A stretch of DNA of 64,000 nt from Larkinella rosea (GTDB lineage Bacteria > Bacteroidota > Bacteroidia > Cytophagales > Spirosomataceae). The stretch is from the NCBI RefSeq assembly GCF_003858635.1, contig NZ_RQJO01000008.1:930001-994000 (forward strand), written 5' to 3'. The notes under the pieces are model-generated. The model saw only the letters and a program-made list of their open reading frames with translations. It was not told the origin of the DNA and did not search any database. Made by a program: the position numbers and the translations under genes. Of this stretch, positions 21,381-55,921 are shown piece after piece. Positions within the stretch are counted from its first letter, which is position 1, and the number at the start of each line of letters is the position of its first letter.

Positions 21381-21482
21381 GTACCCACGAACTTTAGTCC
21401 GTGATTTCTTACTGTATTGACTACCTAGTACCTCCATGCGCTTCGAATGAACCGCTTACGCGGACTAAAGTCCATGGGTACA
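21381..21482. repeat. REP-like inverted pair with TTTA/TAAA tetraloops
   Basis: Arms 21381-21403 and 21460-21482 pair at 20 of 23 positions around a 56-nt spacer. Each arm contains its own hairpin: CACGAAC-TTTA-GTCCGTG on the left and CGCGGAC-TAAA-GTCCATG on the right, with a GTACCC...GGGTAC outer end. The same unit, without mutations, occurs at 39135-39223. Confidence 0.85.
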
Positions 21483-21489
21483 CAGTGCG

Positions 21490-24048
21490 TTATTCCTGAT
21501 TGTGGGGACCGTTGACGCTGCTGGCTCCGCTGGTTTTGGAGTTCAGGTCGGTTACCGTACCAAACTCGGCATTGCTCGCACCTGCGGCACTCACATCCGC
21601 CCGGCCCACATTCATGGCCGTGGCATCGAGTTTACAGGCACCGGACAACTGCGCATTCAGGCTGTTGGTACGTCCCCGCAGCGTGGCTTTCGACGCACCG
21701 GTCAGATCCAGATCAATCTTGTTGGTTTTTACATCCAGCAGCGTTTTGCAGGCACCGGTCAAATCCACATCCAGGTTGTCGATGTTGTCAAAACCGCTCA
21801 CGATCGACTGGGTGGCACCCGAGAAATGGATCGAGTTGACGTTCGGCATCGAGACGGTGATACCGATGCGCTTGCGGTTTTTCCATTTCAGGATTCCGGT
21901 GTCGCGGAAATCGACGTGGAGTTCGCCATTTTCGACCCGAACGCGCAGGTCATCGATGTCTTCTTCGCGGCCGTCGGCCACCACCCGGAACGTGGAATCG
22001 TGTTTGATCCGCACGGCAAAAGCACCGCCCATGTCGATTTTCGAGAAATTGGCCGCTTCAAACTGGCGGGTATATTCGCCTTTGTGGTTGAAATCGTCAC
22101 CCAGTTCGTTGCGCAGTACTTCGTCGATGGCGTCGTTGGTATCGAAATCCCGTTCGTAATGATCTTCGTTCAGTTGGCGCGGGCCATTGAGCGAAACCAG
22201 TCCGTCGGCCTTCGTGAATTTCCAGATGCTGGATTTCATGCGTTCAATTTCTTCGTTCCCGAATTCGTTGCGGATGTGTCGGGCAAAGGCCTCGGTCATG
22301 CGGAACGGGCGTTCGTACGGAACATAAACGATGAGGTCGATGTCCTGATCCCGAAAACGGGCACCCGATTTGATTTCGTAGCTATCGTCAAACCGCACCA
22401 GCGAATCTTTCACGGCCCAGTTATAAATCACGGTCTTCGCATTCCGCTGGGCTTCCTGGCGGGTTGGGCCCTGCGCTTCATACCGTTTCAGGAGTTTCCA
22501 GGATGCGCCATCGATGCCTTCCAGTTCAATCGCCGTATGGAAATTACCGTTGTTATCGTCCACATCGTTGATATCGAGCGTCGGAATGGGGGCGGGAAGT
22601 TGAATGACTTCCGTCTCTTCCACCACACCGGTTCGGCTAAACTCGTTGACTATCTGCGGAATCGTTGCGGCCAGACCGACCAGTCCCAGAAACCAGATGC
22701 ACAATAGCGTCAGGGAAATGCCCGTAGTGACCAGAGCGCGTTGCGAGATAATCATGATCCCCAGAATCGCTAATCCCAGACCCGGCAGAAAAACCGCTAC
22801 GAAAGCCGACAGGATCATCGGGGGGGAGATTTCACGCTGGAGCATGTACGGAATTTCACTGCCGCCAAAGTGTATGCCGCGCAGCCCGAAAACCGTCCCC
22901 AGCACACCAAGCGCGGCCATCATGATCGCAAAACCGACCACCACCAGAAATACCCCGGCCAGCACCCGAACAATCGAAACCGTACCCCGGGCCAGTGGCC
23001 CCAATAAGCTGGCTAGCCCATTGAAAATCATGGCAATGATTCGAAAGGGAAACAGTAAGATTTTTGCCGCTGTACTTTCTTCGGCGGTTTCGTTGATATC
23101 AAGACTGCGCTTGATATTGCTCTCGATGTTCGAGAGCGTAATGGGCTCCCCCTGCATTTCCATCTTTTCGGTTAAGGTGTTGGCCGTTGGAGAGATGATC
23201 CAGAGAACGAGGTACGCCAGAAAACCGGTACCGAACAGAAAAATGGTCAGCACAAACAACAGCCGAACCACCCCGGCATCGGTGCCAAAATAAGCGGCAA
23301 TACCCGAAGCGACTCCCCCCAGCACTTTGTCGTCCGGGTTCCGGTAAAATTTCTTGACACTTTTGTCATCTTCCAGCGTCGTGGAGCCGGGGAAGGCCAC
23401 CCACATGGCGATGTACAGAACAACGGTAAAGCCGGAAAGGCCACCAAAAAACTCACCACCTCCACCCATTATACCACTGAACGGCGGCAGGGCCAGAATG
23501 AGGGTTACGAAAACCAGCCGTACCCAAACCGGGTCGATGTTGAAATAATTGGCAATCCCGGAAGCCACCCCACCGGCAATTTTCCGGCGTAAGTCGCGGT
23601 ACAGTTTGCGGGGCGGCACATTGGCAGGACGCGGAGGCACGGGGCCGGTTCCGGTCGCACTCCCGGTTTTCGGGTCGCGGCTTTCTCCTGCGGGTCTGGC
23701 CGATTCAAACGTCGGTTGCGGACGGCTGGAGCCTGAACTGCCGACACCGATGCTGTCTTCTTCCTCAATCGCTTCGAAATCGGCGACGGTTCCCATCGAC
23801 TGAATCAACTCGTTGACATCCTCCAGCGTAACCACCTGGCGTGGACTGGCCTGCTTTTCGGCGGCTTTGAGTTTGTTGAGGAGTTTTTCGGCAATCCGGT
23901 TTTCAATGTCGGTAATGATTTCCTGGCTGTCTTCGTAGGTCGAAAAGTAGTGTTGAATCGACGTGAGATAGCCCTTTAATTTATCGTAGCCATCCTCCTC
24001 GATGTGGAAGATCACTCCGCTTATATTTATACTTATGGTCTTTTTCAT
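21490..24048 (-). CDS. PspC-domain membrane protein with C-terminal GIN domain
   Basis: 852 residues. The N-terminal ~100 residues (MKKTISINISGVIFHIEEDG) are a soluble region, then two PspC domains (KLYRDLRRKIAGGVASGIAN and FYRNPDDKVLGGVASGIAAY, each with membrane helices), four or more further helices (about 330-480) and a C-terminal GIN/DUF2807 beta-helix (FEAANFSKIDMGGAFAVRIK, then repeated SGA/TGA turns). Known in Bacteroidota next to PadR regulators and interpreted as an envelope-stress module. The PadR gene precedes it by 38 bp on the same strand, so the two form an operon; the small GIN protein follows after a REP-like element. Confidence 0.9.
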   Translation of the reverse strand: MKKTISINISGVIFHIEEDGYDKLKGYLTSIQHYFSTYEDSQEIITDIENRIAEKLLNKLKAAEKQASPRQVVTLEDVNELIQSMGTVADFEAIEEEDSIGVGSSGSSRPQPTFESARPAGESRDPKTGSATGTGPVPPRPANVPPRKLYRDLRRKIAGGVASGIANYFNIDPVWVRLVFVTLILALPPFSGIMGGGGEFFGGLSGFTVVLYIAMWVAFPGSTTLEDDKSVKKFYRNPDDKVLGGVASGIAAYFGTDAGVVRLLFVLTIFLFGTGFLAYLVLWIISPTANTLTEKMEMQGEPITLSNIESNIKRSLDINETAEESTAAKILLFPFRIIAMIFNGLASLLGPLARGTVSIVRVLAGVFLVVVGFAIMMAALGVLGTVFGLRGIHFGGSEIPYMLQREISPPMILSAFVAVFLPGLGLAILGIMIISQRALVTTGISLTLLCIWFLGLVGLAATIPQIVNEFSRTGVVEETEVIQLPAPIPTLDINDVDDNNGNFHTAIELEGIDGASWKLLKRYEAQGPTRQEAQRNAKTVIYNWAVKDSLVRFDDSYEIKSGARFRDQDIDLIVYVPYERPFRMTEAFARHIRNEFGNEEIERMKSSIWKFTKADGLVSLNGPRQLNEDHYERDFDTNDAIDEVLRNELGDDFNHKGEYTRQFEAANFSKIDMGGAFAVRIKHDSTFRVVADGREEDIDDLRVRVENGELHVDFRDTGILKWKNRKRIGITVSMPNVNSIHFSGATQSIVSGFDNIDNLDVDLTGACKTLLDVKTNKIDLDLTGASKATLRGRTNSLNAQLSGACKLDATAMNVGRADVSAAGASNAEFGTVTDLNSKTSGASSVNGPHNQE

Positions 24049-24086
24049 GGCAACAAAGCGTGTGAAAGAGTCGTGATGTGTTTAGG

Positions 24087-24509
24087 TCAGTTTTCCCCAG
24101 AAGGTGTATCGGGGCTGGTCTCAGCGGCTGGCGCGGGCGATTCTACCGTAGTCAATCCGTTGATTGCGGCCTTGTGTTTGTCGGTTTTACTGACAATCGA
24201 GTTCACCGAATCGGATAATTCCTGCCATGTATCGTTCATTCCTTTCAGAGACGCCTGGCCGGTTTCGGTCAGCAGGTAATATTTGCGCGGTGGTCCGGAG
24301 GTTGATTCCACCCATTTATAATCGAGCAACCCGGCATTCTTGAGCCGGGTGAGCAGGGGGTAGAGCGTACCTTCTACAACCATGATGCGGGCGGAAGTGA
24401 GTTCCTCCAGCATGTCGGAAGCATAAACTTCGCCCCGCGAGATGATGTGCAGGATGCAGAATTCCAGAATTCCCTTCCGCATTTGCACTTGAGCATTTTC
24501 AATATTCAT
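24087..24509 (-). CDS. PadR-family transcriptional regulator
   Basis: 140 residues. The winged-helix domain fits PadR: QMRKGILEFCILHIISRGEV, YASDMLEELTSARIMVVEGT, LYPLLTRLKNAGLLDYKWVE, SGPPRKYYLLTETGQASL. The C-terminal ~40 residues, ending in a Pro/Ala-rich tail, are variable. It heads the operon with the PspC/GIN protein and probably represses it, as PadR proteins commonly autoregulate. The promoter upstream (24650-24680) contains tandem repeats that may be its operator. Confidence 0.92.
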   Translation of the reverse strand: MNIENAQVQMRKGILEFCILHIISRGEVYASDMLEELTSARIMVVEGTLYPLLTRLKNAGLLDYKWVESTSGPPRKYYLLTETGQASLKGMNDTWQELSDSVNSIVSKTDKHKAAINGLTTVESPAPAAETSPDTPSGEN

Positions 24510-24649
24510 ATCATTGCATGACGTTTAACTAGTTGACGGTGGTGGGAGCTGATCGGGTTGTTCATTAGGTTCATGTTGTTGTTCATCAGTTGTTGTTTAC
24601 TTTGTATAAGCGGTCCAATCAGCTCCTGACCTTTCCAGTTTTGATAGTT

Positions 24650-24680
24650 CAAAGGTACACAAAGGTACTATGCAATGCAA
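24650..24680 (-). promoter_or_regulatory. padR-pspC promoter with tandem -7 boxes
   Basis: On the minus strand TTG (24678-24680) is followed after 20 bp by TACCTTTG (24650-24657), a full TAnnTTTG box. A second TACCTTTG lies 10 bp upstream (24660-24667), and the -33 region overlaps the dyad TTGCATTGCA. The direct repeats of GTACCTTTG/GTACCTTG spaced by about one and two helical turns are candidate PadR sites. Confidence 0.55.
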
Positions 24681-24805
24681 GGTACTTTATAAAATTGTCT
24701 GAGCCGAAATGATAAGCGGAAGAAATACCGAGATGAATGGCTGATTTGGAGGAAGTTCAGATTAATTTGTATGTTTATCCAACCGTACGTTTTATTTTCC
24801 AGGCT

Positions 24806-27800
24806 ATGCGAACTACCGCTGTCACTTTTCTGCTCTACCTGTCGGTTATTAAATTGATTGCTCAAGCAAATAAATTTGGCAATGAATGGATTGACTATGG
24901 TCAGACCTACTACCGAATTCCGATCACCCGGACCGGTATGTATCGGTTGACAACGAGCGACTTACAGAAAGCCGGTTTGGCAACCAACTCGATCAATCCC
25001 GCGACCTTACAGCTTTTCCGGCGGGGTGTCGAGCAAGCCATTTACCTGAGCGGTGAGTCCGACAACAGACTGGATACCGGCGATTACCTTGAGTTTTTTG
25101 GAGAGCGAAACGACGGGCGGCAGGATTCGCTGCTGTATCGCCCGATGAGCGCCCAGCCGCATCCCTACTACAGCATGTATTCCGACACGGCGGCCTATTT
25201 TCTGACCTGGCGGCTGGATGGAAAACCGGGGAAACGGATGGCGGTTTTGACCGAAACCGATCCAAAAGGGCTGGCGCCGGAGCCGTACCACATCGCCGAA
25301 CAGCTTACGGTTTTGACTACTGAAATTTCCAGCAACCAGGCCAACGGCGGGCCGTCGCCCTTTCCGTCGGCCAACGAACTGTTTTTTGAACCGGGCGAAG
25401 GCTACACGGGGCCGATGTTGAAAAAAGACAGCACCGTGAGCCGAACGTTTGTGCTGGACGGCTGGGTACGAACGGCCGCCCAAAAACCGGAAATGGAACT
25501 GTTGCTGAACGGCCGCGACAATACCTCGCATTTTGTCGATGTTTTTACCGGAAAAACCGCTCAGGGAACCCTGCGTTTCGAATGGTTCGACAACGCCAGA
25601 CAGTCGTTTGAAATTTCTCCGACCGACATTTCTTCGACCAATGAACTAATTCTTTCGACGCGGTCGCGCGGCCCGTTTGAAACCGATCGGTATTCCGTCA
25701 GTTATTATCGCCTTCGGTATCCGCAGTCGTTCAGTTTAAAAAACCGCACCCCGCAGACTTTCAATTTATTGCCCAATCCGCAGGGGAAATCTTATATAGA
25801 ATTCTCAGACGCTGCCACCAACACACTGATTTACGATCTGACCGATCCGAATCATCCGCGCCGGTTGACCGCGGTTCAGTCAGGCTCTGTGCTGAAGCTG
25901 ATTGTGCCAGACACGGAAATTCCCCGCTGGTTGCTGGTTAGTCCCGAAATCCTGACACCGTCGCGACTGGAACGTACGGTTTTTCGAAAAATCGATCCGG
26001 CCAAACACAATTACCTGATCATCAGTCATGAATCCTTGATGAAACCGGTTGGAAAAATAGCCAATCCTGTAATCGAATACGCAGCTTACCGGGCGTCGGA
26101 AGCGGGTGGACGTCACGATACGCTGGTGGTGACGATGAAGCAGTTAATGAATCAATTCAGCTACGGCGAACGGACACCGCTGGCCATTCGCCGGTTTGCG
26201 GAGTATATGTTGGGCGGAAAAACCGCATCCGCCGACACGACCAACTACCTGCTCCTGATCGGGCGCGCCAACGCCTATTATCCCAATCGCACGAGTCCCG
26301 ATCAGTATTACCGCGATCTGGTGCTGACAATTGGCAATGTGCCCGGTTCGGACCTGTTGCTGACGGCCGGGCTGGCGGGTTATCCCGAAAATGTACCGGC
26401 CATCCCGACCGGGCGGATCAACACCCTCAATCCGCAGGAGATTTTGAGTTACCTCGAAAAAGTGAAGGAATTTGAACGGACTCCCGCCAACGAGCCCTGG
26501 CGGAAAGACGTGCTGCACCTCAGCGGAGGGCATTCTTCCTTCGAAATGGCAACCTTCCGGCGCATTCTGGATCAGGCGGGTGAAACCGCCCGGCGGCACT
26601 ATATCGGCGCAAATATGATCCTTAAAGCGAAACAAACCGACGAGCCGGTGGAGCGCGTCGACATCAGCGGAATTGTCAATTCGGGCGTTTCGATGATGAC
26701 GTTTTTCGGGCATTCGTCGCCCATCGTCACCGATCTGGACTTTGGTTATGCGTCAAAACCAGCCTATGGCTATTCCAACAAAGGGCGGTATCCGCTGATG
26801 TTTTTCAACGGTTGCGGGATCGGGAATATCTTTTTTGGATCTGCCGGTAACTTGTCTACCGATTGGCTGCTGACGCCCGACAAGGGAGCGATTGCGATTC
26901 TGGCGCACAGCGGCTCGGGGTATTCGGGGCCGCTGGAAACCTATACGCGGCAGTTGTACCAGATTCTGTTTGCCGACAGCGTGTTCCTGAACAAACCCAT
27001 TGGATTGATTCAGCAGGAAACCACCCGACGCGTACTGGAACGCTACAATGGTGCTTACGACATCTCCAACGCCCACCAGATGGTGTTGCAGGGTGACCCG
27101 GTTTTGCGGTTGTTTCCAGTTCAAAAACCGGATTTCATCCTGGGTTCATCGGGTGTTTTTCAGCCTGGTTCGCAAAAAGATTCCGTGCGGCTGGGCGTTG
27201 TGGTGACCAATGCCGGGCTTTTCGATGACCGGCAGCGGGTTGGTCTGGCCGTTCGGCAGCGGCTGGCCGACGGGCAAATGCGGTTTTACGGCACGAAACT
27301 GCACAACGCCATTGCGTACCGTGATACTCTTTATTACGCATTCAAACCAGATGCTGCGCAGATCGAAACGCCCGACCGGTTTGAAATTGTCGTTGATCCC
27401 GGCCAGCAAATCGACGAATCCGACGAAACTAACAACGTACTGGTTTTCGAGCTCAAAACGGGAATGGATGGCTATTCGGTTTTGTTGCCGGATTCGGGCC
27501 AGCGTTTCCCACCCGATCGATTCAATCCATTGCTCGACGTGACCTTTGATGGCGTGCTGCTGAAAAATGGCGCGCTGGTTTCGGCGAATCCGTTGATTCA
27601 GGTGGTTTTGCAGGATGAAGACCCGTACCGGATTCGCCGGGACACCATCGGGATTGATGTGTTCCTGAAAAAACCGTGTGCTACCTGCGATCTGGAACGC
27701 ATCAGGTTGAACAGTCCGGACGTGAGTTGGAAACCGGCCGGGCCGGATAACCGCTTTGTGCTGGATTATCAGCCGAAAAACCTGGCCGACGGTGCCTACG

Positions 27801-28834: not shown

Positions 28835-28909
28835 GGGGGAGTTATGAGTTAAGAATGATGAGTAATGGACGATGAATGGGCGGATAATTTGATTCGTAAT
28901 GATTGTGGG

Positions 28910-29987: not shown

Positions 29988-30004
29988 AATGAGTTAAAAG
30001 TTAT

Positions 30005-30061
30005 GAGTGATGAGTTAAGACGGGGCCAACCGCCGGGCGGCCCCGTCTTAACTCATCACTC
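30005..30061. repeat. Perfect 23-bp inverted repeat overlapping the end of maf
   Basis: Arms 30005-30027 and 30039-30061 are perfectly complementary (23 of 23) around an 11-nt loop. The right arm contains the stop codon of maf and its last three codons. A related single arm, TTATGAGTTAAGA, is visible near 28850. No T-tract follows on either strand. Confidence 0.92.
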
Positions 30062-31245: not shown

Positions 31246-31249
31246 TTGC

Positions 31250-33341: not shown

Positions 33342-33809
33342 ATGACAATGCCAATCGAACATGACATAAAGCAAACCACCTCGTTCAGGTCACCGTATCA
33401 CCGGATGACGGTAAACCTGATGTATACCAACGGCTGGGTATGCGACGAGCAGATGTATCTCTTAAAGCCGTATGGGTTAACCATTCAGCAATATAACGTG
33501 CTACGGATTTTGCGCGGGCAGTATCCCAACCCGGTTAAAGTGGCGGACATTACCGAGCGAATGCTGGACAAAATGTCGAATGCATCCCGGTTGGTCGATA
33601 AATTGCTGGCCAAAGAGTTAGCCCAACGTACCGAATGCCCCAACGATCGCCGGGCGGTTGATGTGGTGATTACGGAAAAGGGACTGGATCTGTTGAAAAT
33701 GATGGATCAGCACCAGAATCAGTGGGAAACGCGGTTTCATAACATTACCGAAGCTGAAGCCAATGAGCTGAACCGGTTGCTGGACAAACTCCGCGGATCA
33801 ACCGAATAG
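33342..33809 (+). CDS. MarR-family transcriptional regulator
   Basis: 155 residues. The winged-helix motif runs from YGLTIQQYNVLRILRGQYPN, through VKVADITERMLDKMSNASRL, VDKLLAKELAQRTECPNDRR to AVDVVITEKGLDLLKMMDQH, as in MarR. Dimerisation helices flank it at both ends. Directly upstream of the YceI gene with a 67-bp gap, a pairing widespread in Bacteroidota; it probably controls both genes through the operator at 33233-33245. The ligand is unknown. Confidence 0.93.
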   Translation: MTMPIEHDIKQTTSFRSPYHRMTVNLMYTNGWVCDEQMYLLKPYGLTIQQYNVLRILRGQYPNPVKVADITERMLDKMSNASRLVDKLLAKELAQRTECPNDRRAVDVVITEKGLDLLKMMDQHQNQWETRFHNITEAEANELNRLLDKLRGSTE

Positions 33810-33876
33810 AGTTCCCAATTTTTTAGTTCATAAATCAATCAATTTACAACCAACCAACTTCCCTAAGTTTAATCTC

Positions 33877-34554
33877 ATGTACAAGCAAATTTTAGTAGGA
33901 TTCGTGGCCACAGCCGTGGCATTGAGCACTTCCGTCGCAGTAGCCGGAACATCCGATCGTGGCAATGACAAAACGGCCAAAAAGAGTGTCGCCAAAACGA
34001 CGACCTATAACATCGATACCGACAAAAGTGTATTGACCTGGAATGGTAAAAAAGTAACGGGTGAGCATACCGGCCCCGTTAAAGCCGAAAAGGGCTATTT
34101 AACCCTGAGCGGCAATCAGTTGAAAGGTGGTGTCGTGTCGATCGATCTGCGGACCATCACCAGCACCGACCTGAAAGACAACAAGGAATACCACGACAAA
34201 CTGATCAATCACCTGAAGTCAGACGATTTCTTTTCGGTGGAAAAACACCCGGTTGCTACGTTTAAAATCACCAAAGTGAAACCGCTGAATGGAAGTGTTT
34301 CGGATGTAACCGGTGACCTGACCATCAAGGGAATTACGAATCCGGTAACCTTCCCGGTAACGGTAGCCGTTTCCGGCAATACGCTGAATGCCACCGGTAA
34401 AGCAACGATCAACCGCGCAAAATTCGATATCCGCTACGGTTCAAAGTCATTCTTCGATAACCTCGGCGACAAAGTGATCTACGATGACTTCACCGTTGAT
34501 CTGAATATTGTTGCCACCGCCGACAACACTTCATCAGCCGTCAAGACTAAATAA
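33877..34554 (+). CDS. YceI family periplasmic lipid-binding protein
   Basis: 225 residues with a signal peptide ending STSVAVAG. The YceI fold is marked by TTYNIDTDKSVLTWNGKKVT, GYLTLSGNQLKGGVVSIDLR, YHDKLINHLKSDDFFSVEKH, PVATFKITKV and GDLTIKGITNPVTFPVTV. YceI proteins bind isoprenoid-type lipids in a lipocalin-like barrel. Second gene of the marR unit, ending at the terminator 34576-34615. Confidence 0.93.
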   Translation: MYKQILVGFVATAVALSTSVAVAGTSDRGNDKTAKKSVAKTTTYNIDTDKSVLTWNGKKVTGEHTGPVKAEKGYLTLSGNQLKGGVVSIDLRTITSTDLKDNKEYHDKLINHLKSDDFFSVEKHPVATFKITKVKPLNGSVSDVTGDLTIKGITNPVTFPVTVAVSGNTLNATGKATINRAKFDIRYGSKSFFDNLGDKVIYDDFTVDLNIVATADNTSSAVKTK

Positions 34555-39100: not shown

Positions 39101-39135
39101 AAACCCCGATCAATCTGGTCGGGGTTTTTGTTTTC
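39101..39135 (+). terminator. Intrinsic terminator after hsp20
   Basis: AAACCCCGA (39101-39109) pairs with TCGGGGTTT (39119-39127) around a 9-nt loop, followed by a T-rich tail. The REP-like element 39135-39223 starts exactly where the tail ends. Confidence 0.9.
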
Positions 39136-39223
39136 GTACCCACGGACTTTAGTCCGTGAGATCCTGGAGTAGGGGTTAGGATTAGAAATGCCCAGATTTC
39201 ACGGACTAAAGTCCGTGGGTACG
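39135..39223. repeat. Perfect REP-like inverted pair that ends inside trpF
   Basis: Arms 39135-39159 and 39199-39223 pair at 25 of 25. Each is itself a mini-hairpin: CACGGAC-TTTA-GTCCGTG on the left and CACGGAC-TAAA-GTCCGTG on the right, with CGTACC/GGTACG outer ends. The right arm contains the last five codons and stop of the TrpF-like gene. Same family as 21381-21482. Confidence 0.92.
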
Positions 39224-39853
39224 GGCGAAAAACCGCTCCAGTTTCTCAGAGTCCAGTTTTCCGTTCGTTCGAACCCCGCTGCAAATGTCCAGTCCGAACG
39301 GACGTACGGTGTCGATCGCTTGCCGGACATTCTCCGGATTGAGTCCGCCCGCCAGAAAAACCGGCACCCGGCTTTGTTCCACAATCCGGCGGCTCAGCGT
39401 CCAGTCGTGCCGCCGACCCGTGCCGCCAAGTTCTTTCACCGCCAGCTTCGGATTGCCCGAATCCAGCAGCAACGCATCCACTTCCTCGGCCGACGCCAGT
39501 GCTTCGTCGATACTGAGTTCGTCGAGCACGTGAATCACCTGCACCAGTTTGATGCCGGGTAAAGCCGCCCGCAGAATCCGGTAACTGCCCGCTGGCAGGG
39601 CATCGACGAGTTGAATGGTGTTGGTAAACACCCGGCGATGGTGTTCGATCACGGCTTCAGCGGTTGGCTCGCTCGTCAGCAGAAACGTGGCGATCGGGGG
39701 CGGAACGGTTTCGGCAATCGTTCGGATGAGTTCGTCGCCGATGATGCCCGGTCCGCTGGGCATTTTTCCCACCAAACCCACCGCCGACGCACCGGCTCCC
39801 ACCGCCATTCGGGCTTCTTCCACGCTGCTAATGCAGCAGATTTTAACGTGCAT
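39206..39853 (-). CDS. Phosphoribosylanthranilate isomerase-like protein
   Basis: 215 residues from the ATG at 39853 (MHVKICCISSVEEARMAVGA is the normal beginning). The (beta/alpha)8 barrel resembles TrpF: IATFLLTSEPTAEAVIEHH, LVQVIHVLDELSIDEALASA, ALLLDSG, VFLAGGLNPENVRQAID and the phosphate-loop GLDICSGVRTNGKLDSEKL. The catalytic Cys of the K-I-C-G motif is present but the following Gly is Cys (KICC). No other trp gene is in the window, so it could be a paralogue with another isomerisation role. The last codons come from a REP-like arm. Confidence 0.75.
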   Translation of the reverse strand: MHVKICCISSVEEARMAVGAGASAVGLVGKMPSGPGIIGDELIRTIAETVPPPIATFLLTSEPTAEAVIEHHRRVFTNTIQLVDALPAGSYRILRAALPGIKLVQVIHVLDELSIDEALASAEEVDALLLDSGNPKLAVKELGGTGRRHDWTLSRRIVEQSRVPVFLAGGLNPENVRQAIDTVRPFGLDICSGVRTNGKLDSEKLERFFARTHGL

Positions 39854-39964
39854 ATCAAAGGTATTTTCCGGATTGAACGATAATAATCGCAAAATAATGA
39901 ACAAAGAATTTATAGTTTGCCTTACTATTCAGTGGAGTCACCGTTCAACAGTTATTTTTGCGGT

Positions 39965-47023: not shown

Positions 47024-47273
47024 GGTTTTGGGTGCCCGTACGAGGTTACTACAGTCGAAGGTTCAGAAAGGTATTTATTTTTATGTACAGGCAACTATTG
47101 GACGCACGAAGCGTCGCTAAGTCACAGCTTGGGTTGGAAATACTTTTAAAAATTTTTGATACGGTTTTGCATTTTAACCCAGGTTAAAATTATTGAGCCG
47201 GATGGTGCGGACCTTTGTCCTGTTCAAATCGCTGAACGACAGCCAAAAAACACAACTCTTAAACAATACGATC

Positions 47274-48059: not shown

Positions 48060-48064
48060 GAATG

Positions 48065-48102
48065 TTGATAGGAACACGGCGACCCGGCCGTGTTCCTATC
48101 AA
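48065..48102. repeat. Perfect 16-bp inverted repeat, related to 57974-58093
   Basis: TTGATAGGAACACGGC pairs with its complement around GACCCG, 16 of 16. The central and right part (about 48077-48100) is identical to the right arm of the larger element at 57974-58093 over about 24 nt. It fills the gap between the hydrolase and kbl genes. Confidence 0.9.
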
Positions 48103-48105
48103 AAG

Positions 48106-49314: not shown

Positions 49315-49318
49315 ACGG

Positions 49319-50281
49319 TTAATGCGTTGGAACAAGGGTGTGATAGATAGTCGAAAGCTGCGTGATCATTTCCTGCGTCATGTGCGGCAGGTCGAATTCC
49401 GGTTTCCAGCCCCAGTCGCGCCGGGCCACCGTATCGTCGATGGTCTTGGGCCACGAATCGGCAATGGCCTGTCGGAAATCCGGTTTATACCGGACGTTGA
49501 AAGCCGGAAAATAGGTCTGAATCGAGGCCGTTAGTTCGGCGGGCGTAAAACTCATCCCGGCCAGATTATAAGACGTTCGCACCTTGATCCGGTTTTCGGG
49601 GGCTTCCATCAGTTCGAGCGTTGCCCGGAGCGCGTCGTCCATGTACATCATCGGCAACATGGTATTTTCGGACAGAAAACAGTCGTACGGTTTTCCCTGC
49701 ACAGCCGCGTGAAAAATCGCCACGGCGTAATCGGTGGTGCCACCCCCCGGCATCGACTGGTAGCTGATCAGGCCCGGATACCGCAGCGAGCGAACATCCA
49801 AACCATAGCGTTTGTGGTAATAAAGCGACCAGTTCTCGGCAGCTACTTTACTGATCCCGTAAACCGTAGCCGGGTCGAGTACGGCCGTCTGGGGCGTTTC
49901 GTATTTGGGCGCATCATCGCCAAAAGCCGCAATCGAACTCGGCACAAAAACCTTCCGAATCCGGTGGACGCGGGCTACTTCCAGCACGTTGAGCAGCGTC
50001 GCCATGTTCAGGTTCCAGGCCCAGATCGGGTCGCTTTCGCCTTTGGCCGACAGAATGGCCGCGAGGTGATAAATCTGGGTAACCCGGTAACGGCGAACGA
50101 TGTCGGCCAACTCGTCCGCTTTAGTGGCATCCATCCGTTCAAAAATTCCCTGCTCGTGATCGGGCCGTCGCAGGTCGGCGGCAATGACTGAGCGAGTCCC
50201 GTAAATAGCTTGCAGACGGGGCAGCAGTGCCGTTCCGATCTGGCCGTTTGCCCCGATAACTAAGATGGTTTCACGCTTCAT
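49319..50281 (-). CDS. tdh: L-threonine 3-dehydrogenase, SDR (epimerase-like) type
   Basis: 320 residues. Rossmann motif [14 protein letters not shown], then [40 protein letters not shown], and catalytic [29 protein letters not shown] is typical of the short-chain ThrDH branch (distinct from zinc MDR Tdh of E. coli). It oxidises threonine to 2-amino-3-ketobutyrate using NAD. Operon with kbl. Confidence 0.93.
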
Positions 50282-50494
50282 GTTTCAGTTGGTTCGAAGT
50301 GTAAACGTAACAACGCCAAAACCGGTCGTGTATAAATCGTTCCGGTTTTTATTTATGGTACAAATATAAGTATACCGATTATTTTTGGATATTCGTTCAA
50401 TAAATCAGATAATATTGTGGTTATTATATAATATTGGAGATATTATTACGGTTTTTGTTAGACAGAAATAACCGGTTTTAGAAAAATTTTCGGC
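50282..50494. promoter_or_regulatory. Divergent promoter region of tdh-kbl and lrp
   Basis: 213 bp, markedly AT-rich. On the minus strand a -7-like TATATTTG lies at 50361-50368, 80 bp before the tdh start; no well-spaced TTG accompanies it. Several ATAATATT-type dyads (50410-50450) could be Lrp contacts. Confidence 0.45.
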
Positions 50495-50959
50495 ATGGAA
50501 CAGCTGGACGAAATCGACAAGAAACTGTTGCGGCTTTTGCAGGAAGATGCGAAGCTGACCACCAAGGAATTAGCGGCTCAATTGAGCCTGACCTTATCAC
50601 CGGTTTACGAGCGAATCAAGCGGCTGGAGAACCTGGGTTTTATCAAACAATACGTAGCGGTTCTGGATAAAAATCTGCTTGGCCAGCCGATCACGACGTT
50701 TTGCCAGGTGTCGATGCGCTACCACGACAAGGCGTTTATCGACAAGTTTGAGGAAGAAATCAAGAAGCTGGAGGAGGTGCAGGAATGCTACCACATGGCG
50801 GGGCAGGTCGATTTTCTGCTCAAAATTCACGTGAGCAGTCTGGAACGGTATCACAATTTTGTGAAATATAAACTATCTGAAATTGAGAATATTGGTACGC
50901 TCAATAGCACCTTTGTTCTGAAAGAAATCAAGCACGATCTGGGTTATCCGATTCACTGA
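50495..50959 (+). CDS. Lrp/AsnC-family transcriptional regulator
   Basis: 154 residues. HTH: LDEIDKKLLRLLQEDAKLTT, KELAAQLSLTLSPVYERIKR; RAM ligand domain: KLEEVQECYHMAGQVDFLLK, SLERYHNFVKYKLSEIENIG. It is divergent from tdh-kbl, so local control of threonine catabolism by amino-acid status is likely (inference). It overlaps the next gene's 3' end by 7 bp. Confidence 0.95.
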   Translation: MEQLDEIDKKLLRLLQEDAKLTTKELAAQLSLTLSPVYERIKRLENLGFIKQYVAVLDKNLLGQPITTFCQVSMRYHDKAFIDKFEEEIKKLEEVQECYHMAGQVDFLLKIHVSSLERYHNFVKYKLSEIENIGTLNSTFVLKEIKHDLGYPIH

Positions 50960-51570
50960 TTGCCAATGCGGGGGAGCGTCCAGTTGTTACGGATGGCCAA
51001 CAGACGGATGATGGTAATGCTGGCGGCTGAAATCAGGAAATTAATAGTGGGATCAATCGCCAGCTCTCTCCCCAGCACGTAAAGCAGCGCACCCATCAGG
51101 CAAGCCGTGGCATACACGTGTTTTTCAAAGATCAAAGGAATGTCATTCACCAGGGTGTCGCGCAGAACACCGCCAAACAGGGCCGACATCACCCCCAATA
51201 AGACGGCCGCCCAGTTATTGACGTTCAGACTCAACGCTTTCTGTAAGCCGAGGATGGTATAAATGCCGATGCCAAGGGTATCAAAAAAAAGCAACGGGCG
51301 CCGAAGCTGACCAAACCACCAGCGTCGGCCGACGATGGCAATACCCACTCCCATCATGATGACGATGATGTAGTTGGGGTCACGAATCCAGAAAATGGGG
51401 TAAGCACCCATGATGATATCACGGGTCGTTCCTCCGCCGACCGCCGTTAGAAATCCGATAAAAGAGATTCCAAACAGATCGTGGTACACCTTTTTGCTCA
51501 AGGCGGAAAGTGCCCCGGAGATGGCAAAGATGCTCGTGCCGATGAGGTCGATGAGATACCAGTTGCTCAT
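50953..51570 (-). CDS. TRIC/UPF0126 (YadS-like) cation channel family protein
   Basis: 205 residues with seven hydrophobic segments. The duplicated motif typical of this family is visible: GISFIGFLTAVGGGTTRDII and GVMSALFGGVLRDTLVNDIP, each with GG-x-x-RD. Family members are prokaryotic trimeric intracellular cation channels or uncharacterised membrane proteins. Convergent with lrp. Confidence 0.88.
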   Translation of the reverse strand: MSNWYLIDLIGTSIFAISGALSALSKKVYHDLFGISFIGFLTAVGGGTTRDIIMGAYPIFWIRDPNYIIVIMMGVGIAIVGRRWWFGQLRRPLLFFDTLGIGIYTILGLQKALSLNVNNWAAVLLGVMSALFGGVLRDTLVNDIPLIFEKHVYATACLMGALLYVLGRELAIDPTINFLISAASITIIRLLAIRNNWTLPRIGNQ

Positions 51571-51691
51571 GCTTCAAAGGAAACACTTTTCCCGGAAATG
51601 AAGGCAAATTTGTCTCGTTTAACGCCAAAACCAGTCTTGGATTCTAAAGCCGGACAACCTATCTTCGGTAATTCGACCCTCCTGAACCACC

Positions 51692-52861
51692 ATGCTCCAC
51701 TCGTTTCTTCTCGCCATCAGTTTATGGCTCAACCCAACGGTTTTACCCGACCAAAAACCGCCTGTCGCTGAAACCACCATTTTCCAGAGCGGGGAAGATG
51801 GGTATAAATGCTTCCGGATTCCGGCCATTGTGAAAGCGCCGAACGGAAACCTGCTGGCGTTTGCGGAAGGTCGCCGGAAAGATTGCGATGACTTCGGTGA
51901 TATCGACATCGTCATGCGGATCAGCCCGGACAACGGCCAGACCTGGGGACCGCTGCAAATTGCCGCCGACAACGGGAGTTTGCAGGCCGGAAATCCGGCT
52001 CCTGTTTTCGATCTGACCGACAAAAATTTCCCGCAGGGACGCCTGTTTCTGGTTTATAATACCGGCGTCATGTCGGAAAGTGAATTGCGGAAGGGCGGAG
52101 GCATTCGGGAAATCTGGTATAAAACCAGCACCGACGGCGGGCAAACCTGGGCGGATGCCGTGAATATTACGACGCAGGTTTCCAAGCCCCACCAGCCCGA
52201 TGTGAACCCGGCGTATGCGTTTTCCGAAGACTGGCGGTGGTACGCCAATACGCCCGGCCACGCGTTGCAGATGAAAAAAGGCCGCTACAAAGGCCGGATT
52301 TTTGTTGCGGCCAACCACACCGCCGGTGCGGAGCAGCCCCAGTTTCGCGATTGCCGGGCGCACGGTTTCTACTCCGACGATCACGGGAAAAGCTGGAAGC
52401 TGACCCCGGATGTCGCGTATCCGGGCAGCAACGAAAGCACAGCCGCCGAAACCTCGGACGGCGGTTTGCTGATCAACAGCCGGAACCAGTCGGGTGACGC
52501 GAAAAACCGCCTGCTGTCGTTTTCAAAAACCGCCGGAGAAAGCTGGGAACCGGTGCGGATCGCGACCGACTTGCCCGACCCGGTTTGCGAAGGAAGCATG
52601 ATCGATTACCAACCCAGCCGCCGGAAAACCGTGCTGCTGTTTTCGAATCCCAACAGTCCGAAAACCCGGACGAACATGACGGTTCGGGTCAGTACCGACG
52701 ATGGCAAAACCTGGTCGGGCGGCAAGGAAATTTACAGCGGTTCGTCGGCCTATTCCGATCTGGTGATTCAGAAAGACGGTACCATCGGAATTGTGTACGA
52801 AAAAGACAGGTATAGTAAGATTGTCTACACCCACTTTTCGTACAACTGGCTGATTGAGTGA
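51692..52861 (+). CDS. Exo-alpha-sialidase, GH33-like (secreted)
   Basis: 389 residues with a signal-like N-terminus (MLHSFLLAISLWLNP). The FRIP arginine motif is in YKCFRIPAIV, and Asp-boxes of the S-x-D-x-G-x-x-W type occur at SPDNGQTW, STDGGQTW, SDDHGKSW and STDDGKTW. A catalytic-type Asp (KDCDDFGDIDIVMRI) and Tyr near the C-terminus (SGSSAYSDLVIQ) agree with GH33. It would release terminal sialic acid or a related sugar from surface glycans. First gene of the carbohydrate locus. Confidence 0.87.
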   Translation: MLHSFLLAISLWLNPTVLPDQKPPVAETTIFQSGEDGYKCFRIPAIVKAPNGNLLAFAEGRRKDCDDFGDIDIVMRISPDNGQTWGPLQIAADNGSLQAGNPAPVFDLTDKNFPQGRLFLVYNTGVMSESELRKGGGIREIWYKTSTDGGQTWADAVNITTQVSKPHQPDVNPAYAFSEDWRWYANTPGHALQMKKGRYKGRIFVAANHTAGAEQPQFRDCRAHGFYSDDHGKSWKLTPDVAYPGSNESTAAETSDGGLLINSRNQSGDAKNRLLSFSKTAGESWEPVRIATDLPDPVCEGSMIDYQPSRRKTVLLFSNPNSPKTRTNMTVRVSTDDGKTWSGGKEIYSGSSAYSDLVIQKDGTIGIVYEKDRYSKIVYTHFSYNWLIE

Positions 52862-52938
52862 GTATCAACGCGAACTATGGAATTGTTGGCCGCGTAGCGG
52901 ACTGATATTTGTAGCCTAAAGACAGCCCGATTCCTTCC

Positions 52939-52981
52939 GCGTGCCTTTAGGCACGCAATCTCCTGCATCTGTTGCGTGCCT
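52939..52981. repeat. Truncated TTTA-hairpin pair
   Basis: A complete mini-hairpin GCGTGCC-TTTA-GGCACGC (52939-52956) is followed by the start of a second, inverted unit (TTGCGTGCCT at 52972-52981, complementary to AGGCACGCAA at 52949-52958). The second unit breaks off where the next element begins at 52983. Confidence 0.75.
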
Positions 52982-52982
52982 G

Positions 52983-53210
52983 ATTGATTTAAGCAAAATA
53001 ACCGCCGGATTCATATTTTGATTTATCAGCCCACTGCTTTAGCTGTGGGAAATTGAAACGCAACCGAATCATAGCAGAACCGTTTTAACGGTTTCTGGCC
53101 AATAAAACCGTTAAAACGGTTCTGCTAGCAGGGGGATTTTTCGTTTTACCCACAGCTAAAGCAGTGGGCTGATAAACATTCAGTTCGGCGGTTATTTTGT
53201 TTAAATCAAT
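52983..53210. repeat. Three-layer nested inverted repeat (composite REP-like element)
   Basis: Outer arms 52983-53007 and 53186-53210 (24 of 25); middle arms 53022-53049 and 53149-53176 (28 of 28); inner arms 53072-53094 and 53105-53127 (23 of 23). The middle arm contains CACTGC-TTTA-GCTGTG, the inner arm AACCGT-TTTA-ACGGTT, and the opposite arms the TAAA versions. The two halves are thus mirror images over 228 bp. Confidence 0.95.
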
Positions 53211-53232
53211 TCGGGGATTTAGGGGTAATGTG

Positions 53233-54699
53233 CTACTTTCCCGGCAGTGTAATCCCGCTGGACTGGTTGACAAAAACCGGGGCTTTTTTTCGGTCAGGAT
53301 CGCTGATCGTCATGGGCGTTAAACTGGCCTGTTTCACGTCGTCGAGGACCACGGCGGGGCGGTAATCCTTTTTCTGGCAGATCAGCCGGACGTTTTCAAA
53401 CTTGATGTTTTGGGCGTGCCGCAGGTAAAAACCCCAGGCAGGTAATTCGCCAAACATCGAGAAATCCGGGTAAGCTGTCGGTTTTTCGGGTACTTTGTCG
53501 AGGGCCGTGAGCGGCACGTTGGCGAACGAGGCCGAACCGCCACCGGGCTGAATGATTTCGACGTTTTTTAGCGTCACATTGTTTACCAGCGCATCGGGCA
53601 TCCCGACGATTGAGGAAGGGGAAACGTTGCGGGGCATGTCTTCAATCGGCCCTTCGTATTCGTAACCGGCATCGGCCTTCGTTGCGGGCACTTCGACGCG
53701 GATGTTGGTCAGCCGGACGTTTTCCAGCCGCCCTTTCTTGCCTTTCACGCGTTCGCCGATGCGCAGAAAAATCGCATTTCCCGTGTTGATGGCTTCCAGG
53801 CTGTCGATTTCCACGTTTTCGATAAAACCGCCATCGACGGCTTCGAGCGCGATAGCCGAGCGGTAGGTGTCGTAGACCTTGATCCGGCGCATGTTGATAT
53901 TCCGAAAACCACCGTAGCTGGCCGTGCCAAATTTGATGGCGTTGGCGCTGGACCGGATCGTGCAGTTGCGGACGTAAATGTTCTCACAAACCTTCGTCGC
54001 GTCGTGCGATTTCAGGCAAATCCCGTCGTCGTCCGAATCAATGTACGAATTGGTTACGCTGACGCTGTCGCAATCCACCAGATCGATGCCGTCGTTGTTC
54101 CAGTAGGCTTTGCTGTCGACCGAAATGCCGTCGAGCTGCACGTTTTTACACTGGTCGTAAATCTGCACCCAACTGGCCGAATTTTTGAGCGTAACACCCT
54201 GCACTTTAACGCGTTGGTTGCCCCGGAAATAGATCAAAACCGCCCGGGCTTCGGCTTCGGGCCGGTCGAAGCGAAACTGATCCTTGATGAGTCCTTTCTG
54301 GATCATGGTGATGACGTTGCGGGCCAGATACCGCCCCTGCCCGTCGATGATGCCTTTGCCGGTGATAGCGATATTCTGCTGATTTTCCGCGAATACAAGG
54401 GCCGTCCAGACATGCCGGTCGTAATCGAACGGATTCAGCGATCCGAGTAAAACCGCTCCTTCTTCCAGGTGCAGCGTCACATTGGATTTCAGGTGAATCG
54501 AACCGGTCAGAAACCGCCCGACATTGAACACCAGCCGACCCCCGCCATTCTGGTGAATGTGGTCGATGGCGTACTGGATCGAACGCGTGTTGAGCGTAGC
54601 GCCATCTGAATAAATACCAAACAGTGAAACCGGGTAATCTTTGGCCTGAAGGCTAAATGTCGTTAAAATGAAAAAGAGGAAGGTGCAGACAACTTTCAT
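53233..54699 (-). CDS. Glycoside hydrolase family 28 (polygalacturonase-like), secreted
   Basis: 488 residues; signal peptide MKVVCTFLFFILTTFSLQAK. The right-handed beta-helix of GH28 begins at FGIYSDGATLNTRSIQYAID (the Pel/pectinase front) and shows YWNNDGIDLVDC (NxD), SYIDSDDDGICLKS (the DD catalytic pair) and SSANAIKFGTASYGGF near the third catalytic strand, where the usual G-H-G is replaced by F-G-T. Probably an exo- or unsaturated-uronate-releasing hydrolase of pectin or other uronic-acid glycans. Same strand as the nitrilase gene upstream, 28 bp apart. Confidence 0.9.
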   Translation of the reverse strand: MKVVCTFLFFILTTFSLQAKDYPVSLFGIYSDGATLNTRSIQYAIDHIHQNGGGRLVFNVGRFLTGSIHLKSNVTLHLEEGAVLLGSLNPFDYDRHVWTALVFAENQQNIAITGKGIIDGQGRYLARNVITMIQKGLIKDQFRFDRPEAEARAVLIYFRGNQRVKVQGVTLKNSASWVQIYDQCKNVQLDGISVDSKAYWNNDGIDLVDCDSVSVTNSYIDSDDDGICLKSHDATKVCENIYVRNCTIRSSANAIKFGTASYGGFRNINMRRIKVYDTYRSAIALEAVDGGFIENVEIDSLEAINTGNAIFLRIGERVKGKKGRLENVRLTNIRVEVPATKADAGYEYEGPIEDMPRNVSPSSIVGMPDALVNNVTLKNVEIIQPGGGSASFANVPLTALDKVPEKPTAYPDFSMFGELPAWGFYLRHAQNIKFENVRLICQKKDYRPAVVLDDVKQASLTPMTISDPDRKKAPVFVNQSSGITLPGK

Positions 54700-54727
54700 G
54701 AACAGTTGGGTTTAGGAAAAATAGAAA

Positions 54728-55687
54728 TCAGGATGAGGGATCGGGTTGGAGCCAGACTACTTTTTGTTCGGATTGGTGCGGCTGTCCGATAATGTCGCGG
54801 TAAAGCTCGGGCCGGCGGGCCTGTTTGTAGCGAAAACCGCCCGCCATGGTCAGCTTTTCCGGTGTGCAGGTGGCAATCACAAAATCGTTGTCAAGCTTGC
54901 GGCATTCGGCCAGAACGTCGCCGAACGGATCAATGATCATGGAACAACCGTTTTTGAGCTGGTCGTCGTCCATGCCGATCGGGTTGGAGAAAACCACGTA
55001 AATGCCGTTGTCGTAGGCCCGCGCGGGCAGCCATTTCATCAGCCACGAACGGCCTTTCATGCCGTCGAATTCCAGTCGCAGCGAGGTAGGATCGTTCTCC
55101 CGGTTTTTCCAGAGCGCCGGATCGACAAAACCGGCGCCGGGGCGCGTCGAGGGCGTACACATCGTCACGTGCGGCATGAAAATGATGTCGGCACCGAGCA
55201 GCGTAGTGGCCCGGACGTTCTCGATGATGTTGTTGTCGTAGCAGATCAGCATACCGCATTTCCAGCCTTTGATCTCAAAAACGACGTATTGATCGCCCGG
55301 CAGCAGGTGCGGATTGATGAACGGGTGCAGTTTGCGGTATTTGGCAACCAGCCCGTTTTCGTCGACGCAGACGTACGGTTTGTACAGGCGATCCTGATCG
55401 TCTTTTTCGAACAAACCCGACAGAATGACAATCTGGTGTTCGCGGGCGATGGCGGTCAGGGCCTGAATGCTTTCTCCACCCGGCACGAACTCGGCAATGT
55501 CCAGCATTTGCTCGCGCGACAGATGCCGGGCGTGGGTGTAGCCCGTGATCGAGCACTCGTGAAAAGCGATGACATCGGCACCCTGTTGGGCGGCCTGCGC
55601 GGCCAGTTGGCGAATGATCGAACGGTTGTAGGCTTTATCCCCGTTGTGGTGTTCAAACTGGGCGGTGGCAATGCGAAGCGGTTTCAT
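54728..55687 (-). CDS. Nitrilase/carbon-nitrogen hydrolase family amidase
   Basis: 319 residues. The catalytic triad is Glu44 (AFHECSITGY), Lys119 (AKYRKLHPF) and Cys149 (GMLICYDNNI), as in the C-N hydrolase superfamily. Substrates in this superfamily are nitriles, amides, carbamoyl compounds or acyl groups; in this locus deacylation or amide cleavage of a sugar derivative is a possibility only. Co-oriented with GH28. The opposite strand also has a 319-codon frame over it, rejected as a shadow. Confidence 0.88.
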   Translation of the reverse strand: MKPLRIATAQFEHHNGDKAYNRSIIRQLAAQAAQQGADVIAFHECSITGYTHARHLSREQMLDIAEFVPGGESIQALTAIAREHQIVILSGLFEKDDQDRLYKPYVCVDENGLVAKYRKLHPFINPHLLPGDQYVVFEIKGWKCGMLICYDNNIIENVRATTLLGADIIFMPHVTMCTPSTRPGAGFVDPALWKNRENDPTSLRLEFDGMKGRSWLMKWLPARAYDNGIYVVFSNPIGMDDDQLKNGCSMIIDPFGDVLAECRKLDNDFVIATCTPEKLTMAGGFRYKQARRPELYRDIIGQPHQSEQKVVWLQPDPSS

Positions 55688-55768
55688 CGTGCAAAAGTAA
55701 GATAGAATCCTATTTCTACCACCAGAAAATGACAGTTGGCCGATTCCGGGAAAAGGATAAAGTGTTTT

Positions 55769-55921
55769 TTATTAGCCCACGGTTTGAACCGTGGGTGCGG
55801 AGCGGATGGTTATCTGTGTTTGGAACCGTTTTAACGGTTTTGAGATCCTGAAACCGTTAAAACGGTTTTCGCCATCCCATTTTGTTTTTGTGAACCCACG
55901 GTTTAAACCGTGGGCTGATAA
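55769..55921. repeat. Second composite nested inverted repeat
   Basis: Outer arms 55769-55796 and 55894-55921 match at 26 of 28, each holding CCCACGGT-TT(A/G)A-ACCGTGGG; inner arms 55824-55840 and 55851-55867 match 17 of 17 and share AACCGT-TTTA-ACGGTT exactly with the element at 52983-53210. The TTAT(C/T)AGCCCAC edge is also shared. Confidence 0.95.

Follow-up and report, generated by a model that had tools for sequence, protein, structure and literature searches.

Small palindromic repeats of Larkinella rosea: REPIN-like pairs and four-hairpin units probably derived from an IS200-like element

The small hairpin elements described here lie in a 64,000-nt stretch of the Larkinella rosea genome (8.17 Mb), at positions 930,001 to 994,000 of contig NZ_RQJO01000008.1 (G000:C11:930001-994000 in our numbering; hereafter, the window), and resemble several described systems. 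In the REPIN/RAYT systems, which form class 2 of TnpA-REP, the mobile unit is linked to REP (repetitive extragenic palindrome)-associated tyrosine transposases (RAYT; PMC6006769, PMC3116915). The CACGGAC pairs of the window (family 1) share with these systems the inverted pair of short hairpins, the intergenic position, a copy number above 100 and a RAYT-type gene enclosed by such pairs, but have the foot GTAC instead of GT[AG]G. Subclass 1.2 of the IS200/IS605 transposases TnpA is marked by the motif Y---Q--HH and described as generally lacking typical terminal IS200 structures (PMC6006769). The protein associated with the four-hairpin units of the window (family 2) has this motif, the HUH motif, a length of about 150 aa and a match to NF033573, but here double hairpins flank the genes, and one end repeats the other in inverted orientation. 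The PATE elements of Haloquadratum are, like family 2, gene-less IS605-type relatives that keep near-terminal palindromes, and core deletions are documented for them; the PATE ends described there carry one palindrome each, whereas family 2 has two per end, mirrored (PMC3119063). The SMR-A elements of Haloquadratum resemble the 228-bp copies of family 2 in being small, in having terminal repeats and in inserting into palindromes of other mobile elements without target duplication, but the inserting 228-bp element itself holds four hairpins of the same style (PMC3119063). Insertion of IS elements into REPs is also known (PMC1525189, PMC8450116). Within the accessible parts of the open-licence literature, hairpin elements of subclass 1.2 transposases or of Larkinella are not named.

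An earlier note on this DNA, made from the sequence alone, had described hairpins at 21381-21482, 39135-39223, 52939-52981, 52983-53210 and 55769-55921 as one family with one shared design. Hairpins are indeed present at all five places, but they do not share one design: the CACGGAC pairs and the four-hairpin units accompany different protein groups, and at least three families have to be distinguished. With a probability of roughly two in three, we propose that small mobile palindromes of three families, none of them carrying a gene, are present in the window, namely REPIN-like pairs (family 1), four-hairpin units of IS200-type derivation with a loop-inserting 228-bp subfamily (family 2) and a GCGTGCC pair (family 3). 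The coordinates are collected in Table 1.

Four-hairpin units and their gene-bearing relatives

The general layout of a four-hairpin unit, or tetrad, is H1-28-H2-12-H3-27-H4 (spacers in nt), with two hairpins per end, H3 mirroring H2 and H4 mirroring H1. In twelve tetrads of the window genome, the H1 stem is CCCACGGT or CCCACTGC with variants, H2 is AACCGT-TTTA-ACGGTT, the hairpins are nearly perfect, and the units are bounded by TTATCAG-like and CTGATAA-like ends. The spacers measure 25-29 nt between H1 and H2, mostly 12 or 13 nt between H2 and H3, and 26-32 nt between H3 and H4. The long spacers are no more alike among copies than shuffles (28-32% versus 26-29%), and the short middle spacer reaches 36-39% versus 26% for shuffled sequence; one of the twelve tetrads (L025) was left out of one further analysis. 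Complementary spacers, which would make the unit one long hairpin, were considered and rejected (27.6% within elements versus 29.6% between elements). The puzzle uniting these observations is that copies of the GG type keep near-perfect hairpins together with unrelated spacers. Folded as single-stranded DNA, in which TTTA loops should be stable, the units at 52983-53210 and 55769-55921 gave z-scores of -17.9 and -11.1, respectively; for each unit, all 200 shuffles folded less well.

A covariance model of the tetrad was searched against the window genome and other genomes. At E ≤0.01, the window genome gave 67 strand matches, which correspond to roughly 33 places as the unit is palindromic; L. 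humicola (G003) gave 100, G033 68, L. terrae (G004) 46 and G012 14, and there were weak matches in G056 (9), G049 (8) and G044 (2). At E ≤1e-5, matches were found in L. knui (G006, 48), G007 (30), Larkinella sp. C7 (G002, 29) and G008 (2), and none in 12 other genomes of that search. The window unit 55769-55921 scored 149.6 bits, its sequence being itself among those from which the model was built.

In order to relate the tetrads to a transposase, 34 Y1 loci from the window genome and its relatives were scanned for hairpins with TTTA/TAAA loops. Perfect AACCGT hairpins were present at four of them (L082, L081, L077 and L062) and at no other, and all four genes have the subclass 1.2 motif. The proteins are of IS200 type, about 150-185 aa long, with the motif Y---Q--HH; in ten associated proteins, Y115, H55 and H57 are invariant and Q119, H122 and H123 are conserved to at least 90%. 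The representative P0001 scores 78.8 bits against NF033573 (cut-off 55), and the family 2-associated protein matches by sequence the transposases of PDB entries 2xm3, 2xqc and 2xo6, which we take to be ISDra2. Within the genus, hairpins of the tetrad kind adjoin the 3' end of the gene in five genomes (L081, L082, L077, L088 and L062); most P0001-type genes of the genus adjoin, as read by eye, the end of uvrA, with hairpins solely on the 3' side. The full order H1-H2-gene-H3-H4 is found at L091 in G012, which belongs to another genus and whose gene is 58% identical to P0001; the inner hairpins there are of the AACCGT kind, the outer pair is CCCAC-TTTA-GTGGG, and the spacers measure 29 nt by the same way of counting. 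Another gene-bearing copy (L092) has matching ends in part, and in G044 the gene (53%) stands between two GCCCACGGTTTAAACCGTGGGC hairpins. Since the four-hairpin layout of the window units matches the ends of the L091 element, the window units are probably internally deleted derivatives of such an IS200-like, gene-bearing element.

The occurrence of tetrads was also compared with that of the gene in 24 genomes. Of the 8 genomes in which P0001 has a relative of at least 50% identity, 7 contain tetrads (E ≤1e-5), compared to 2 of the 16 genomes lacking such a relative (Fisher p 0.0007, kinship not corrected). The genome with a relative that misses is G044 (best E 2.2e-5), and the two without a relative are the window genome and G007. 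When G008 is taken out, the only match of which adjoins the gene itself, the counts are 6 of 8 versus 2 of 16 (p 0.005, kinship again not corrected). The place beside uvrA, where a P0001 gene might have been lost from the window genome, was not found there in ten 20-kb stretches set by assumed colinearity. Other RAYT-class loci were considered as carriers and rejected: at 26 Y1 loci, the repeat motifs with up to three mismatches gave, beyond those known, only three-mismatch AACCGT look-alikes at L061 and L067.

These data bear on the alternative that all units are ordinary REPINs moved by REP-associated RAYTs, a tetrad being two REPINs nested by chance. Three RAYT-type genes are present in the window genome, none of which reaches the cut-off of NF047646, its CACGGAC units fit a REPIN well, and REPIN spacers are, like those of family 2 between perfect hairpins, less conserved than the ends, although they can still pair (PMC3116915), which the non-complementary spacers of family 2 do not. 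Against chance nesting, the H1-H2-H3-H4 spacing is near constant across copies and the same around the L091 gene, and among the 34 Y1 loci perfect AACCGT hairpins are confined to four genes with the subclass 1.2 motif; we regard this alternative as improbable.

Hairpins beside related genes are not confined to Larkinella. A search with P0001 of named genomes gave 34 loci in Bacteroidota, Planctomycetota, Acidobacteria, Verrucomicrobia, Cloacimonadota and others, mostly metagenome bins; as all of them were collected through their similarity to a single protein, these loci do not count as independent, and two lie on one contig. A repeated hairpin lies within 450 nt of the gene at 22 of the 34 loci, compared to 5 of 170 control places taken from these loci, and copies of one hairpin stand on both sides of the gene at 15 of 34 loci versus 0 of 170 control places. 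The two-sided copies are better described as mirror images in 11 cases and as direct copies in 6, two of these counting as both. A preceding mirror count (12/34 versus 0/170) was discarded in favour of these figures, as it did not separate mirror from direct copies of the palindromic hairpins. With longer stems, any repeat was found at 18 of 31 loci (L135, L146 and L147 left out; the other two counts used all 34) versus 2 of 93 control places. The nested order A-B-gene-B'-A' is plain at L091, L132 (Verrucomicrobia) and L143 (Acidobacteria); at L112, the order A-B-gene-B' is accompanied by further copies. In 50 loci that were drawn, 38 have a repeated hairpin (29 of 30 and 21 of 34 from the two locus sets; counted without control); L109 and L110 are at contig ends, with the gene misplaced in that drawing.

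Further hairpin arrangements were seen near such genes and elements. The window genome's own gene with the subclass 1.2 motif (L001, G000:C11:866220-866639) is preceded, as read by eye, by another nested four-palindrome unit with AGGGCGATGCCCT, TGTCCCTTTGGGGCG and mirror images. Downstream of the P0001-type gene L089 (G033), a run of decayed CCCACGGATTTATC-like units separates it from its neighbour, and arrays of GTCGCGTTAGCGAC / GGTCGCGTAGCGACC hairpins lie alongside the subclass 1.2-type genes L068 (G007) and L105 (G004). In ten stretches of G049 (L277-L286), CCCAC..TTTA..GTGGG hairpins belong, as read by eye, to other small elements, whose ends resemble AGAGCTTGTCTAAA or CACCGGACATTTTTG; those of the CACCGGACATTTTTG kind hold more than one hairpin. 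In G056 (L289-L291), CCCATAACTTTAGTTATGGG and CCCACGATTAAAATCGTGGG form pairs in either order, with stems that differ within the pair and loops that mirror each other.

Empty sites, insertions and divergence

Mobility of the units is supported by empty sites, in two relatives (G004 and G003) for the family 1 pair at 39135 and in one (G004) for the tetrad at 52983. In G004 and G003, the flanks of the 39135 copy meet across a short unrelated stretch. At the site of 52939, G004 has the GCGTGCC pair intact, GCGTGCCTTTAGGTACGC..GCGTGCCTAAAGGCACGC, and lacks the 228-bp unit; in the window, the first hairpin (52939-52956) alone is whole, the second is cut inside its loop, ending at GCGTGCCTG, and the 228-bp unit starts there. 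The 52983 unit was thus probably inserted into the loop of the family 3 hairpin. Tens of nucleotides to the right of the unit also differ from G004, and since this right flank looks like half of a CCCC..GGGG repeat, the site may have been rearranged after the insertion.

The 228-bp unit belongs to the CTGC subfamily of family 2 and ends in 25-nt terminal repeats, ATTGATTTAAGC.. and its mirror; similar arms occur in copies of G003, and the GG subfamily is without them. Among 20 tetrads fetched from G003, the spacers of the 12 CTGC-type ones are 54% and 47% alike on average, compared to 31% for the 8 of GG type, which indicates a more recent spread of the CTGC subfamily. At two CTGC-subfamily copies of L. 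humicola (L346 and L347), the flanks rejoin to a CACGGAC/CACGAAC-TAAA-GTCCGT hairpin, the loop being cut between TA and AA without duplication. At L350 and its ortholog L362 (G002), joining the flanks restores a CCCC..GGGG hairpin, and TA stands on either side of the unit. The other junctions reveal no target. Altogether, at least 7 paired bases span the junction in 4 of 14 CTGC-subfamily copies (3 independent sites) versus 69 of 5000 random places; of one set of 20 stretches, 7 lacked a CTGC-type element and did not enter this count, and neither did L192 and L195.

The terminal repeats and sharp ends of the 228-bp unit would also suit a miniature inverted-repeat transposable element (MITE) of a DDE transposase which picked up the hairpins as cargo. 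Similar CCCAC hairpins do sit inside elements with other terminal repeats in G049, and a duplication could account for the two TA of L350/L362. At L346 and L347, however, there is no target duplication and the TAAA loop is restored exactly, and the GG subfamily has the four hairpins without the 25-nt arms. We judge a MITE quite unlikely.

In L. terrae (G004), the nearest relative, at least 8 of 21 window-genome tetrads have a tetrad at the same place (14 places were fetched of the 46 strand matches there); four further sites have none, and a fifth has a single hairpin. Seven of the flank-typed tetrads were comparable, and L190 matched on one side only. At L207, an H4 remnant is present in G004 and a tetrad in G003. 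Six of the 8 orthologous pairs align well; their hairpins differ by 4.2%, their spacers by 7.8% and their flanks by 10.2%. The other two (L203 and window 55769) could not be aligned and are left out of these figures. Purifying selection alone was judged insufficient as the cause of perfect hairpins with unrelated spacers, because the divergence of hairpins is lower than that of spacers by no more than about half. In the two remaining cases, window 55769-55921 versus G004:C1:548021-548171 and L203/L220, a tetrad lies in the same intergenic gap with unalignable spacers, in surroundings about 87-91% identical. These cases suggested that spacers change quickly in place, which was rejected as a rule in view of the alignable, closely similar spacers of the other six. 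At L224, L228 and L232 in G004, other palindromic repeats of the CCCCTAAATCCCC-TAAA-GGGG and CTGTCAGGG types are found where the window genome has a tetrad, as if one repeat family could take the place of another in a given gap.

The same comparison speaks to the possibility that the units are host features kept by selection, such as two-way transcription terminators or hairpins at mRNA ends. The units are intergenic, two of four sites lie between converging genes, folding is strong and hairpins diverge somewhat more slowly than spacers, all of which would fit; but the sites of 39135 and 52983 are empty in sister species, those of 21381 and 55769 lie between two minus-strand open reading frames (ORFs), and the gene before 39135 has a terminator-like hairpin with a T run of its own at about 39103-39130, as read by eye. 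An intrinsic terminator form, that is, a GC-rich stem directly followed by a T run at a gene end, was not seen at 39135-39223, the one place read by eye for it. A host function is in our view very unlikely as an explanation of the units.

CACGGAC pairs and features of the window

With at most one mismatch, CACGGACTTTAGTCCGTG has 74 + 62 = 136 strand matches in the window genome, a symmetric loop counting twice, and none for the reversed control. Elsewhere, L. knui (G006) has 84 matches, G004 15 and the remaining 15 genomes 0-6, with 0 for the reversed control in all 18. Eight pairs were found in 667 kb (the window, 30 stretches and L050), all built on the form CGTACC-CACGGAC-TTTA-GTCCGTG, a spacer of 37-72 nt and an inverted partner. 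The left loop is TTTA in 8/8 and the right loop TAAA in 5/8 (TTTA, TTCA and TGAA once each), with the foot CGTACC in 8/8 and GGTACG in 7/8; at least six lone CACGGAC-type hairpins lie in the same 667 kb. The canonical REP foot GT[AG]G, not expected in subclass 2.6, is absent from the eight pairs, all of which have GTAC, and family 1 is therefore not filed as canonical REP.

The Y1-type genes of the window genome were found with PF01797 and NF047646. One of its RAYT-type genes, at G000:C16:174558-175205 (locus L050, protein P0002), is enclosed by two variant pairs that touch both its ends: one begins 2 nt before the ATG, with 7 extra nt in its left hairpin, and the other overlaps the stop codon. 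P0002 has the motifs NHVH and YTLQNP, scores 79.9 bits against NF047646 (cut-off 80) and 21.1 against Pfam Y1_Tnp (cut-off 23), and its sole sequence match in PDB at E ≤0.001 is TnpArep 4er8 (E 3e-7). A second RAYT-type gene (L002/L275, G000:C13, about 33516-34124), 49% identical to P0002, has CCGGAGC..GCTCCGG inverted pairs on both sides, the upstream one with GTAC feet. In the RAYT-type gene L052 (G000:C15, about 86340-86867), palindromes of the GTAGAGACGCGATTTATCGCGTCTCTAC type occur inside the open frame and on both sides, an arrangement which resembles the inserted double-foot REPs given for subclass 2.4 (PMC6006769).

The earlier note had compared the hairpins with REP sequences mobilised by a RAYT, as an inference, and proposed a genome search for the units and for a Y1/RAYT gene flanked by them. 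For the CACGGAC units, this search led to the gene of P0002, and the REP/RAYT reading is supported by their many copies, inverted pairs and flanked RAYT-type gene; it does not extend to the four-hairpin units, whose two nested hairpins per end differ from the REPIN layout. The described loops, TTTA on the left and TAAA on the right, exceed chance, but the outer loops at 55769-55921 are TTGA and TTAA, and the inner ones TTTA and TAAA. In 400 kb sampled at set genome places, 9 of 26 perfect hairpins (stem of at least 7, loop of 4) have a TTTA/TAAA loop, compared to 0/25, 0/22 and 1/21 in three Markov shuffles; as all nine are of the CACGGAC or TACGGAC kind, this excess is due to family 1. In the window alone, the count is 4 of 10, whereas 20 shuffles gave on average 0 among 4.25. 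The base CCCAC/GTGGG, said to be usual, is present on the outer hairpins of the 52983 and 55769 units, and the pattern CCCACN{2,6}TTTAN{2,6}GTGGG has 17 + 13 matches genome-wide versus 2 + 2 when reversed. At the 21381 and 39135 pairs, by contrast, feet of CGTACC/GGTAC precede CACGGAC (the junction also reads CCCAC), and the AACCGT inner and GCGTGCC hairpins have neither CCCAC/GTGGG nor CGTACC/GGTAC.

As to neighbouring genes, the 21381 pair lies between two minus-strand ORFs, the first of which (20559-21437) begins inside the pair by the longest-ORF call, and G004 has a decayed copy at the same site. The 39135 pair lies between converging ORFs, one of which, the minus-strand ORF 39206-39904, takes its last codons from the right end of the pair.

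Table 1 Hairpin elements in the window and their parts (positions counted from the first letter of the window)
Feature	Position	Strand	Composition
Family 1 CACGGAC REPIN-like pair, slightly decayed	21381..21482	.	CACGAAC-TTTA-GTCCGTG ... CGCGGAC-TAAA-GTCCATG; foot CGTACC; hairpin 21386-21403; 55-nt spacer; hairpin 21459-21476; foot GGTAC
Family 1 CACGGAC REPIN-like pair, perfect	39135..39223	.	foot CGTACC 39135-39140; hairpin 39141-39158; 41-nt spacer; hairpin 39200-39217; foot GGTACG
Family 3 GCGTGCC pair	52939..52982	.	hairpin 52939-52956 (GCGTGCC-TTTA-GGCACGC); second from 52974, cut in loop at 52982
Family 2 CTGC subfamily, whole 228-bp element	52983..53210	.	25-nt terminal inverted repeats 52983-53007 and 53186-53210 around four-hairpin core
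H1 of 52983 unit	53030..53049		CCCACTGC-TTTA-GCTGTGGG
H2 of 52983 unit	53078..53093		AACCGT-TTTA-ACGGTT
H3 of 52983 unit	53106..53121		AACCGT-TAAA-ACGGTT
H4 of 52983 unit	53149..53168		CCCACAGC-TAAA-GCAGTGGG
Family 2 GG subfamily four-hairpin element	55769..55921	.	TTATTAG to CTGATAA; H1 55776-55795, H2 55824-55839, H3 55852-55867, H4 55895-55914

Proposed mechanism and its weighing

In the mechanism we propose, the two inverted hairpins of a CACGGAC pair would be mobilised like a REPIN, as single-stranded DNA, by one RAYT-type HUH transposase. Each end of a four-hairpin unit would act through its two hairpins, the outer of CCCAC.. and the inner of AACCGT type, with both ends mirrored, and a subclass 1.2 Y1 transposase is predicted to recognise these ends in single-stranded DNA, to cut and to rejoin them. 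In a gene-bearing relative, the transposase gene lies between the inner hairpins, and in the window units 12 nt stand in its place. The young 228-bp subfamily, with its added 25-nt terminal repeats, can enter the loop of another repeat's hairpin without target duplication. The copies and their layout, the counterpart with a gene, the empty sites and some of the insertions into hairpins are observed. We infer that the Y1 protein binds and moves the units, that it does so by single-strand chemistry, that the gene-less form arose from the gene-bearing one by deletion and that the 228-bp subfamily shares the transposase.

Several observations weigh against this reading. The subclass 1.2 assignment rests on the printed motif, L091 is the sole fully laid-out gene-bearing copy seen, and the P0001 genes of the genus hardly resemble complete mobile units, since they keep hairpins on just one side. 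A close P0001-type gene was found neither in the window genome (best 40%) nor in G007, though both hold tetrads, and no relative of P0002 was found in G006 at E ≤1e-6 despite its 84 CACGGAC matches, so the mover of this repeat would there have been lost or be a different one, in which family 1 departs from REPIN/RAYT. The spacers of GG-type copies are unrelated, which leaves the GG subfamily without a sign of recent copying, and the half-as-fast divergence of hairpins suggests a weak constraint on them. Hairpin copies are direct instead of mirrored at 6 of the 34 P0001-found loci, and 10 of the 14 junctions, the window's included, show no hairpin at 6 or more paired bases, several ends being poorly placed. 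Insertion without target duplication is typical of IS200/IS605 elements, which are not known to have terminal inverted repeats. The CTGC subfamily has such repeats of 25 nt, and the ends of the twelve tetrads mirror each other; no gene-bearing copy with 25-nt terminal repeats was found. Because of these terminal repeats and mirrored ends, we describe family 2 as probably working like, and derived from, an IS200-like element and not as a standard one.

On a wider scale, we tentatively suggest, with the odds a little short of even, that subclass 1.2 Y1 transposases drive widespread mobile elements whose ends are mirrored double hairpins (H1-H2-gene-H3-H4), together with four-hairpin derivatives that have lost the gene. 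Some of these derivatives would insert into hairpin loops of other repeats, and one hairpin family would thereby come to lie within another. These elements would provide a DNA substrate for a branch of HUH transposases described without IS-like ends; a copy with the gene, copies without it and empty sites are available, the last in sequenced Larkinella strains. The four-hairpin layout raises the question of why there are two hairpins per end, and with these copies binding and cleavage are directly testable.

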